From Lawsonia intracellularis PHE/MN1-00 (GTDB taxonomy: Bacteria > Desulfobacterota > Desulfovibrionia > Desulfovibrionales > Desulfovibrionaceae): DNA of 64,000 bases. The DNA is taken from NCBI RefSeq assembly GCF_000055945.1, contig NC_008011.1:434001-498000 (forward strand), read 5' to 3'. The stretch's first letter is position 1. Each line of letters opens with the position of its first letter. The position numbers and the translations under genes were made by a program. Below the pieces are notes generated by a model. The model saw nothing but the letters and a program-made list of their open reading frames with translations. It made no database searches and was not told the DNA's origin. Of the stretch, positions 45,637 through 63,913 are shown piece by piece.

Positions 45637-46379
45637 AAATTTTTATTTAATATTTTTTTAGTATTTTTTATAAAAAACTAGCTTAAAAGAAATAAATGAT
45701 TATTATTTATTTCTGTTTTTAGAATATATTTAGAACTACTCCACTATATACTCTTTAAATAAAAATAATCTTTTTTCTTCCTATCATAACTCTCTACTAT
45801 TAATAACTACCCCAATTGTTCTTAAAGAAGTAATTATCCTCAAAGTTAACTCAACTGAAAATTTAACAATTTTGTGAAAGAAGATAGTGAGTTAATCCTT
45901 ACTCATAGTCTTTTTAAAAATCTTTCTAGCTCTTTTGAACTAAGATAGTTAGAAGAATCTATTGCTTATAATAAGAAGAAAAAAGAAATAGAAAATAAGA
46001 TGTATTCTTTTCAGGGAGAGTAAAAAAACTGATGGTAAAACAATACCTCTGGCAGACTTAACTCATTATAAATATGCTGTTAATATGCCTGTTGGGACTA
46101 AAGTATAGTATTAGAACTTTAGAGGATAAGTTAATTACTATCAAAAAGATGGTACAAAAACAACTTCACCTAATTAATCAAGAATAATTTCTTGATGTAT
46201 CTATAGTAATAACTTTCTAATCTTACTTAATGAAATAATATTTTATATTATTTTTTTAACTATAACAGACTATAGTCTGTTATAGTTAATTCCATTAAAC
46301 TATACATTTATTTATCATATATTGTTAAATAATACTTACTCTTTTATTTATATTATACTCTAACTATTCTAAAAATGCT
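45637..46379. other. 743-base gap with apparently decayed sequence
   Basis: No intact gene is visible. Two short open stretches in different plus-strand frames overlap end to end: 45949-46020 (about 24 codons, Lys/Glu-rich) and 45992-46105 (about 38 codons, ending in a peptide with ADLTHYKYAVNMPVGTK). Both end at stop codons, and further stops follow at once. The second peptide looks protein-like in composition, so an eroded gene is possible. Short inverted repeats lie at 46177-46196 and 46256-46289. I do not recognise the parent gene. Confidence 0.4.
46256..46289. repeat. 34-base perfect palindrome upstream of the methyltransferase gene
   Basis: Two 17-base arms meet without a spacer, centred on TATA between 46272 and 46273. 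It lies 90 bases upstream of the methyltransferase start. It could be an operator, a cruciform or hairpin site, or a boundary mark of an inserted segment. Confidence 0.85.
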
Positions 46380-47426
46380 ATGAATTTGAAAGTATTATCT
46401 TTATTCAGTGGTTGTGGTGGGTTAGATTTAGGTGTAGAAGGTGGATTTTTAGTACATAAAGAATGCATTCATGCTACTAGTGATACTCCATGGATTTGTT
46501 TACCTAAAAATAGATTTAATGTCATTTTTGCTAATGATATTATGGCACAAAGTAATGTTGTCTGGTCTTCAAATTTCACAGGTACATTTCAACTAAAATC
46601 AATAGCAGACTTATTGAACGAAAATTTTCAATTTCCTAAAGCAAATCTTGTGATTGGAGGCTTTCCCTGTCAAGATTTTTCTGTTGCAGGAAAAAGAGAA
46701 GGATTAAAAACTCAAAGAGGCTCTTTATACCACTGTATGACTGAAGTCATACAACAAGTTTCTCCAGAAGCATTCATTGCTGAAAATGTATATGGTTTAT
46801 TTTATATTCCTGGTGTACGTGAAAAAATTACATCTGACTTTGAACAAATTGGATACACCGTCTTTTCTTTCCTTTTATTTTCAAATGAGTATGGAGTACC
46901 ACAAATAAGAAGACGAGTATTTTTTATTGGTCTCAAAACTGAAGCTCTTAAAAGAAAAGTTTCTATTAATGAGATTATTCCTCCTAAAACTCATCAAAAA
47001 TTTGTTTCAGTGGGAACAATTTTTAAAGATCTTCAAGAACCAGAATATACTTTGGATAAAGAACAACAAATTTACTCAAAAAGCAAATTCTATGGCTCTC
47101 AATGGGAAGGAAATAGAGAGGTTGATTTATCTTTGCCTTCACCAACGCTACGAGCTAGTGGCCCAGAATTCAGAAGATTATCTAAGGAACATGGTGGGAA
47201 ACATTTAGATGAATTAAAAGATGGAAAAATTGAACGACGGTTAACTGTTAGAGAATATGCAAGAATCCAAACATTTCCTGATGACTTCATTCTTATGTTT
47301 AATAAAAATAACGAAGAAATAATTTCAATGACATCTGCCTATAGACTTATTGGAAATGCTGTTCCACCATTACTTGCATACCATGTAAGCAAAAGACTAG
47401 ATGAGCTCTGGTTTGATATTTTTTAA
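46380..47426 (+). CDS. Orphan DNA (cytosine-5-)-methyltransferase
   Basis: The 348-residue protein has the ordered motifs of C5-cytosine methyltransferases. Motif I is LSLFSGCGGLDLG near residue 5, motif IV is GGFPCQDFSVAG with the catalytic Cys97, motif VI is FIAENVYGL, motif VIII is QIRRRVFFIG, and motifs IX/X are RLTVREYARIQTFPDDF and RLIGNAVPP. The target-recognition region lies roughly between residues 190 and 290, with SPTLRASG at its end. No restriction endonuclease is adjacent, so it is either an orphan or the survivor of a restriction-modification system. No clear ribosome binding site precedes the ATG. Two perfect palindromes flank the gene. The recognised DNA site cannot be predicted from sequence alone. 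Confidence 0.93.
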   Translation: MNLKVLSLFSGCGGLDLGVEGGFLVHKECIHATSDTPWICLPKNRFNVIFANDIMAQSNVVWSSNFTGTFQLKSIADLLNENFQFPKANLVIGGFPCQDFSVAGKREGLKTQRGSLYHCMTEVIQQVSPEAFIAENVYGLFYIPGVREKITSDFEQIGYTVFSFLLFSNEYGVPQIRRRVFFIGLKTEALKRKVSINEIIPPKTHQKFVSVGTIFKDLQEPEYTLDKEQQIYSKSKFYGSQWEGNREVDLSLPSPTLRASGPEFRRLSKEHGGKHLDELKDGKIERRLTVREYARIQTFPDDFILMFNKNNEEIISMTSAYRLIGNAVPPLLAYHVSKRLDELWFDIF

Positions 47427-47479
47427 TTCTATGGTTTCTTTTTATCATCTATAGATTAACTAAAATAACATAGCAGATT

Positions 47480-47531
47480 ATTTATGTATAAACCCTATAT
47501 AGCATGTACTATATAGGGTTTATACATAAAT
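47480..47531. repeat. 23-base perfect inverted repeat between the methyltransferase gene and tRNA-Lys
   Basis: Arms at 47480-47502 and 47509-47531 are exact complements around a 6-base CATGTA loop. It ends 2 bases before the tRNA-Lys 3' CCA. It could end transcription of both convergent genes, but no run of T follows on either strand. The very long perfect stem is unusual for this genome segment. Confidence 0.9.
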
Positions 47532-47533
47532 TC

Positions 47534-47609
47534 TGGTGGGTCGTGCGGGATTCGAACCTGCGACTCTCTGCTTAAAAGGCAGATACTCTACCTGCTGAGT
47601 TAACGACCC
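47534..47609 (-). tRNA. tRNA-Lys (anticodon TTT)
   Basis: Read on the minus strand, the 76-base gene begins GGGTCGTTAACTCAGCAGG and folds into a standard cloverleaf. The acceptor stem GGGTCGT pairs with ACGACCC. The anticodon stem TCTGC/GCAGA holds the loop CTTTTAA, giving anticodon TTT. The T arm contains GGTTCGAATCC. The discriminator A and a genome-encoded CCA are present. It lies at the edge of the accessory-looking segment that holds the methyltransferase. Confidence 0.97.
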
Positions 47610-62350: not shown

Positions 62351-62470
62351 TATAATTTACTAAGTAAATATAGTACAATTAATTTAAGATAGTATATTTT
62401 ATATAGCAAACATGAAAAAACATTTTTTCTATATAAAAAGACTTTCTATTATATTAGCACAGGATAAAAT

Positions 62471-63913
62471 ATGGCTGAAATCTTAAGTGTTCAAGAGCTA
62501 ACATATAAAATAAAATATGCTGTTGAGACACTATTACCCTATGTTTGGGTTAAAGGAGAAGTAACAAACTACTCCTGCCCAACATCTGGTCATATTTACT
62601 TTTCTTTAAAAGACAACGAGTCATATCTCCATTGTGTTTGGTTTAACTCTATGCAGCGAGAGACAGAAACATTTGATCCTCTTACAGGAGAAGTCTTTCA
62701 AAATGGTCCTCGTTTATCCCTTGCTAAAACAATTACTAATGGTCAAAAAATTATTTGTGCTGGGACAATTGGTGTCTATCCACCTAAAGGTGGCTATCAA
62801 CTACTTGTAGACTTTGCTCAGTCAGAAGGAGTTGGAGAATGGTATAGTGCTTTAGAAAAACGTAAAAATGAATTACAACAACAAGGATATTTTGATCTTA
62901 GTAGGAAACAAATAATTCCACATAATCCTAAAAAAATTGTTGTTATTACATCTCCAGCTGGTGCAGCTATTCAAGACTTCCTACGTATAGCTAAAGAGCG
63001 AGGAACAGAAAAGTATATTCGTATTTATCCTGTCACAGTACAAGGAGAAGAATCTATCCATCAAATAGCCCAAGCTATTCATACAGAAAATAATTCCAAC
63101 TGGGCTGAAGTTATTGTTCTTATACGTGGAGGAGGAGCTTCTCAAGATCTTATGGTATTTAATGATCAACAGTTAATAGATGCTATCTACACATCAAAAA
63201 TTCCTATACTTGCAGGTATTGGACATGAGTCTGATATCTCTTTTGCTGAACTTACCGCTGATCTTAGAGCTGCAACACCAAGTCATGCTGCACAATTACT
63301 ATGGTCAGAACGAACACAGTTAAAACAACAAGTACATGATATGGAAATAGCACTTACTAAAGCTGCTCATTTTCAATTACAGAAAATTCAATATGTATTC
63401 AATAAATTGAATACTACCTTACAATGGCTTTCACCTTTAAAAAAACTTGAACGTAATGAGTTACAGCTTAACTCTATCTATGAAAAACTAAATGCTATCT
63501 TTAATTACAAATTGAAATTAAAAAATCTTGACCTTATACAATATACACAACTCCCCTCATATTCTATTGTAAAAAAAATATCATATTATAAAGAACAACT
63601 ATCTTTTTTACAAAGAAAACTTTATAGGTATATCCATTCAATTTTATTAACAAAAAAACAAAATACTAATAATAACAAACAATTACTAATAAATAATTTC
63701 TTTCAAAAATATCAACAACTACTATATAACTATGAAAAACTTCATGTTACTCTTAAAATGTTAAACCCTCATCTTTTACTAAAGAGAGGTTATGCCCTTA
63801 TATATCTTCCTAATGGTCAAATCCTTCATAGTATACAAGAAGCTCCAGAGCAAACAATACTTACAATAAAACTTCCTGATGGATTACTCTCTGTGAAAGT
63901 TATTTCAGCATGA
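62471..63913 (+). CDS. xseA: Exodeoxyribonuclease VII large subunit
   Basis: XseA with XseB degrades single-stranded DNA in repair. The 480-residue protein has the N-terminal OB-fold (VWVKGEVTNYSCPTSGHIYFSLKD near residues 25-48), the catalytic domain with VVITSPAGAAIQDFLRIAKER near residue 157, VLIRGGGASQDLMVFND near residue 216 and IGHESDISFAELTADLRAATPSHAA near residue 253. The long C-terminal coiled coil is Lys/Gln/Asn-rich. It lies 135 bases after atpC; xseB is not seen. Confidence 0.94.
   Translation: MAEILSVQELTYKIKYAVETLLPYVWVKGEVTNYSCPTSGHIYFSLKDNESYLHCVWFNSMQRETETFDPLTGEVFQNGPRLSLAKTITNGQKIICAGTIGVYPPKGGYQLLVDFAQSEGVGEWYSALEKRKNELQQQGYFDLSRKQIIPHNPKKIVVITSPAGAAIQDFLRIAKERGTEKYIRIYPVTVQGEESIHQIAQAIHTENNSNWAEVIVLIRGGGASQDLMVFNDQQLIDAIYTSKIPILAGIGHESDISFAELTADLRAATPSHAAQLLWSERTQLKQQVHDMEIALTKAAHFQLQKIQYVFNKLNTTLQWLSPLKKLERNELQLNSIYEKLNAIFNYKLKLKNLDLIQYTQLPSYSIVKKISYYKEQLSFLQRKLYRYIHSILLTKKQNTNNNKQLLINNFFQKYQQLLYNYEKLHVTLKMLNPHLLLKRGYALIYLPNGQILHSIQEAPEQTILTIKLPDGLLSVKVISA

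Follow-up and report, generated by a model that had tools for sequence, protein, structure and literature searches.

A solitary C5-cytosine methyltransferase of Lawsonia intracellularis, probably the survivor of an acquired Type II system with a CGCG ancestry, has an altered recognition loop and probably stands apart from the palindromes that flank it

Lawsonia intracellularis is a pathogen of the pig gut which lives inside animal cells, and in the stretch of its genome analysed here (the window, 64,000 nucleotides) a cytosine methyltransferase gene lies between a 34-base perfect palindrome and an inverted repeat with 23-bp arms, beside a tRNA-Lys gene, at positions which agree with those given in an earlier note on this DNA. 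That note took the arrangement for a mobile or formerly mobile cassette with the palindromes as its boundaries, operators or recombination sites, and the locus raises the questions of where the methyltransferase came from, what it may still do, and whether the palindromes have any part in its history. The reading which we prefer, with a probability of about two in three, is that an acquired Type II restriction-modification system, probably of CGCG specificity, has left its methyltransferase behind as an orphan whose specificity has been altered or relaxed, and that the palindromes are a separate matter. The features of the locus are collected in Table 1.

Table 1. Features of the methyltransferase locus, with positions counted from the first letter of the window
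Feature	Position	Strand	Basis or remark
AT-rich intergenic stretch full of stops	45637..46255		searched with partner endonuclease profiles, none matched
Perfect 34-bp palindrome, 17-bp arms, no loop	46256..46289		member of genome-wide hairpin class
C5-cytosine DNA methyltransferase, 348 aa, catalytic motifs complete	46380..47426	+	ORF and profile matches
Motif I (FSGCGG), SAM binding	46404..46421	+	alignment
Motif IV PCQ, catalytic cysteine	46665..46673	+	alignment
Motif VI ENV	46782..46790	+	alignment
Target-recognition domain (TRD), residues 229-285	47064..47234	+	12/21 family-conserved columns kept
Altered recognition loop RAS---GPE (3-residue deletion and substitutions)	47151..47168	+	family alignment
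Hairpin, 23-bp perfect arms, 6-nt loop	47480..47531		between convergent methyltransferase and tRNA-Lys
tRNA-Lys(TTT), intact; the window has no second copy of its 3' end	47534..47609	-	tRNA gene

The predicted protein matched the profiles PF00145 (E=1.8e-56) and TIGR00675 (E=1.2e-52) and carries motifs I, IV (PCQ), VI (ENV), VIII, IX and X in order, as members of PF00145 do, and a profile search of the genome returned it as the single PF00145 match. The AlphaFold model had a mean pLDDT of 90.6, with the fold of the TRD also confident and with residues 101-113, the loop after PCQ, as the only uncertain part. The top PDB match of the predicted fold was M.HaeIII bound to DNA; among relatives of solved structure this GGCC enzyme (PDB 1dct/3ubt) ranks first in sequence (2.9e-36) as well as in fold (1.1e-23), and it has the same C5 architecture, but the two are 29% identical in structural alignment and differ in their recognition domains, and M.HaeIII acts within a complete restriction-modification system. 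Judged from its sequence, the Lawsonia enzyme most likely keeps its chemistry, in that it would flip and methylate cytosine to 5mC.

Single-sequence searches of the genome-contig and viral-contig collections returned no relatives of the methyltransferase, while an alignment search succeeded and returned 571, of which the best 80 cover many phyla; these best 80, together with plasmid and phage relatives, made up a comparison set of 86. The closest relatives are 40-45% identical and belong to Gammaproteobacteria, Bacteroidota, Cyanobacteria and phage. Among 58 relatives of the Lawsonia genome itself the similar-length matches were all at most 37% identical, and the gene was thus probably acquired horizontally, which is one of the parts of the cassette proposal that stand. 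The GC content at third codon positions (GC3) is 0.166 for the methyltransferase in comparison to 0.16-0.19 for its neighbours, so that the acquisition is not recent and the gene is a long-resident one, ameliorated to the composition of its host and yet intact.

In at least 64 of the 86 relatives an endonuclease adjoins the methyltransferase, which agrees with the statement of the earlier note that cytosine methyltransferases travel in restriction-modification units. Four types of endonuclease were found as partners, namely the PDLC03508 type (47), the PDLC03456 type (8), an unnamed PD-ExK type (6) and ThaI (PF15514; 3, with a match at E=1.5e-83), and PD-(D/E)xK motifs are present in two of these types. 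Since ThaI and FnuDII recognise and cut CGCG (PMC3658993), the target of the family is probably CGCG too, and a CGCG ancestry is likewise probable for the Lawsonia gene; the assignment is based on three of the 86 systems and on the family name, the other endonuclease types having no named specificity here. As a side observation, the unnamed PD-ExK nuclease adjoins a methyltransferase at L045:5280-6179, L046, L121, L129, L130 and L048, and in the members that were scanned neither Pfam nor NCBIfam nor PADLOC gave a significant match, so that it probably constitutes an undescribed family of restriction endonucleases.

The Lawsonia gene belongs to the same methyltransferase family as the Type II systems of the ThaI/FnuDII type, and three members of that family stand beside ThaI-type endonucleases, but it differs from them in having no endonuclease and in having lost the invariant recognition block described below. 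No ThaI-, A4- or A5-type endonuclease was found in the Lawsonia genome, the A4 and A5 alignment searches having been run without a positive control, and no cognate endonuclease was seen among the translated ORFs at 40-53 kb. Remnants of an endonuclease were likewise sought in the gap at 45.6-46.4 kb, where the best tblastn hit (E 0.8) and the best HMM hit (E 0.05) amount to nothing; the region 45637-46379 is 22% GC, and the fragments in 45637-46255 look perhaps like decayed coding sequence. With an intact gene and no endonuclease of the tested types either adjacent or elsewhere in the genome, the locus is an orphan methyltransferase, as had been suggested, and not a Type II restriction-modification system. 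The solitary C5 methyltransferases of the Dcm kind also work without a cognate nuclease, but they form another subfamily (the Lawsonia protein falls far below the cut-off of the PRK10458 model), and no gene for Vsr repair was found in Lawsonia.

The departure of the Lawsonia protein from its family is concentrated in the TRD. When a column was counted as conserved at 97% or more across the family (104 columns, 83 outside the TRD and 21 inside), Lawsonia was found to agree with the family at 74 of the 83 outer columns but at 12 of the 21 in the TRD (Fisher p=0.0017). The block PTIR[SA]EHHG[NS]IE (PTIR-x-EHHG-x-IE), taken here as the mark of a CGCG-specific enzyme of the ThaI/FnuDII type, is present in all 85 usable relatives and is replaced in Lawsonia alone, by PTLRAS---GPE; the distant relative L050, left out of the counts for its extreme branch, also carries EHHGNIE. 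There are ten deletions in the Lawsonia protein relative to the family, and its branch is the second longest in the tree (2.79 against a family median of 0.23), although this was a quick tree in which the placement of Lawsonia is unsure. The recognition loop has been rebuilt, and the methylation site would most likely have been changed or relaxed with it.

The composition of the genome was examined alongside. Lawsonia has a CpG ratio of 0.43, in comparison to 1.03-1.09 in three relatives, and this falls below the values at all of 86 short loci from hosts of the family (0.46-1.50); the depletion extends over the chromosome and the plasmids and is absent in the sampled relatives. At synonymous sites C before G was 0.063 in Lawsonia against 0.15-0.27, and G after C was 0.053 against 0.16-0.21, while the intergenic TpG ratio of 0.95 shows no excess. 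There were 51 CGCG sites in comparison to a Markov expectation of 81, a depletion which in part reflects the general poverty in CpG, and in shuffles of synonymous codons CpG was depleted generally with CGCG the lowest among ungapped 4-mers (0.21). The site GGNNCC (NlaIV-type), depleted at 0.67, was considered as a target and rejected, for GGNNTC, GGNNGC and other GGNNxC were also low, GGNNNCC was high, and the same depletion appears in relatives, probably as an effect of codon phase. The deficit in CGCG and CpG would fit, as a hypothesis, either past avoidance of CGCG or methylation of CpG followed by deamination, and a link between the methyltransferase and the CpG poverty of the genome is possible.

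Two other accounts of the enzyme have to be weighed against a functional orphan with a changed or relaxed site. The gene might be a relic on its way out, with a recognition domain so decayed that the protein is no longer site-specific or active; the long branch, the losses in the TRD, the ten deletions and the missing partner all point that way, but a frame which has stayed open in an ameliorated gene, the retention of the catalytic residues together with 74 of the 83 conserved columns outside the TRD, and a predicted fold that is confident even within the TRD make this account unlikely. The orphan might instead stem from a CGCG enzyme whose recognition loop was lost, and have relaxed to CpG-like sites, with deamination of 5mC then driving the loss of CpG throughout the genome. 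The low CpG ratio and the scarcity of C before G at synonymous sites agree with this, as do an ancestral site which contains CpG and the failure to find Vsr; against it, there is no intergenic excess of TpG, and other AT-rich bacteria, for example Clostridium difficile ribotypes (PMC6141142), are poor in CpG as well, and we regard this strong form of the link as improbable.

As for the palindromes, the 34-bp one is separated by 620 bp from tsaB upstream of it and by 90 bp from the start codon of the methyltransferase, and the hairpin at 47480-47531 lies 53 bp past the stop of that gene, with a predicted energy of -34 kcal/mol as RNA on both strands; its end at 47531 comes within about 2-3 bp of the CCA with which tRNA-Lys ends. 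The two share no sequence, and a search of the genome for other copies, with up to 3 mismatches allowed, found none of either. The survey of such structures covered 40 stretches of 20 kb (L025-L044 and L075-L094) and the window, that is 864 kb or about half of the genome, and it returned 28 perfect inverted repeats whose arms reach 17 bp or more, all AT-rich and all different in sequence, while an order-3 Markov control gave no repeat with arms of even 15 bp; the scattering over the genome which the earlier note had named as evidence against its own proposal was thus largely observed. The RNA-fold z-scores of the hairpins range from -8 to -11, and the longest arms, of 37 bp, occur at L025:14479-14566 and L038:3467-3543.

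With gene calls taken as the longest ORFs of at least 80 codons and tRNA genes left out, convergent gaps held 12 of 31 intergenic repeats with arms of at least 15 in comparison to 14.6% of the intergenic bases (p=0.0009), and divergent gaps were depleted, holding 3 of the 31 in comparison to 26.5% of the bases (p=0.02); in tandem gaps 12 of 16 repeats were closer to the 3' end of the upstream gene, as a trend only (p=0.08). The class is thus one of hairpins that lie mainly at the 3' ends of genes. As with bidirectional intrinsic terminators, a strong hairpin is shared by two convergent genes, but the Lawsonia stems are very long, perfect and AT-rich, no T-run follows either of the two hairpins at the locus, and no consensus terminator was found at either; the hairpins in the sampled relatives are mostly GC-rich and shorter. 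The perfection of the stems was considered as a sign of homogenisation between arms and set aside, as repeats free of mismatches made up 28 of the 35 strong ones in Lawsonia but also 7 of 11 in relatives. Both palindromes at the locus belong to this genome-wide class of hairpins of the gene-end type, and nothing seen here connects them with the mobility of the methyltransferase gene. The one at 47480-47531 is probably a bidirectional 3'-end signal, for termination or processing, while the one at 46256-46289 is atypical of the class, in that the preceding stop is 620 bp away, beyond the AT-rich stretch full of stops, and the start of the methyltransferase is much nearer; as a guess, a decayed gene may have ended there.

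The gene order around the locus was compared with three congeners, all of which keep dxr-rseP-tsaB (one with tsaB cut by a contig end). In these genomes proS adjoins xseA and tRNA-Lys stands elsewhere beside other genes, so that tsaB, tRNA-Lys and proS, not being neighbours there, meet in Lawsonia at a rearrangement junction, on which the methyltransferase sits, and not at a clean insertion. In Lawsonia xseA (62468-63904 of the window) is 13 kb from proS, an operon split by rearrangement. For Lawsonia strain N343 the published differences come to 24 SNPs and 90 indels (PMC3587925).

These results weigh heavily against the proposed cassette, in which tRNA-Lys would be the place of insertion and the palindromes would be the boundaries or the sites of recombination. 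An acquired gene does adjoin a tRNA gene with an inverted repeat on each side, but the repeats are unrelated, unique and matched by similar ones genome-wide, mainly at the 3' ends of genes; no second copy of the tRNA-Lys 3' end, which would mark the far boundary of a tRNA-integrated element, occurs in the window; no integrase or transposase was recognised by eye among the translated ORFs at 40-53 kb, which read as housekeeping genes; and the flanks are not syntenic in congeners. Integration at the tRNA therefore finds no support and a cassette is very improbable. The 34-bp palindrome could also be an operator for autoregulation of the methyltransferase, given its distance of 90 bp from the start and given that in two relatives (L045 and L049) an N-terminal extension resembles a helix-turn-helix and suggests autoregulation, but the Lawsonia protein has no such extension, the palindrome sequence has no second genome copy and others of its class are mostly at gene 3' ends, which leaves an operator a doubtful proposition.

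In the history which we favour, a Type II restriction-modification system would have been acquired horizontally, its methyltransferase half surviving while the partner endonuclease was lost or never arrived in Lawsonia, and the gene would have taken on host composition and settled at the tsaB/tRNA-Lys junction. Selection would have maintained the catalytic core while the recognition loop was rebuilt, with 5mC then placed at a changed or relaxed site by an enzyme that may now act alone, in housekeeping or in regulation; the downstream hairpin would serve the 3' ends of the convergent methyltransferase and tRNA-Lys, and the upstream palindrome would be another of the same class.

For Lawsonia in general, the hairpin class should not be taken for the ends of mobile elements. 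For the family, an invariant recognition block lost where the nuclease partner is also absent offers a natural experiment on a methyltransferase freed from restriction. The enzyme is also a concrete suspect, and one open to test, where the unusual scarcity of CpG in the genome is concerned, and if it did drive that loss, it would provide a bacterial counterpart of the CpG decay of vertebrates, in an intracellular pathogen of animals.
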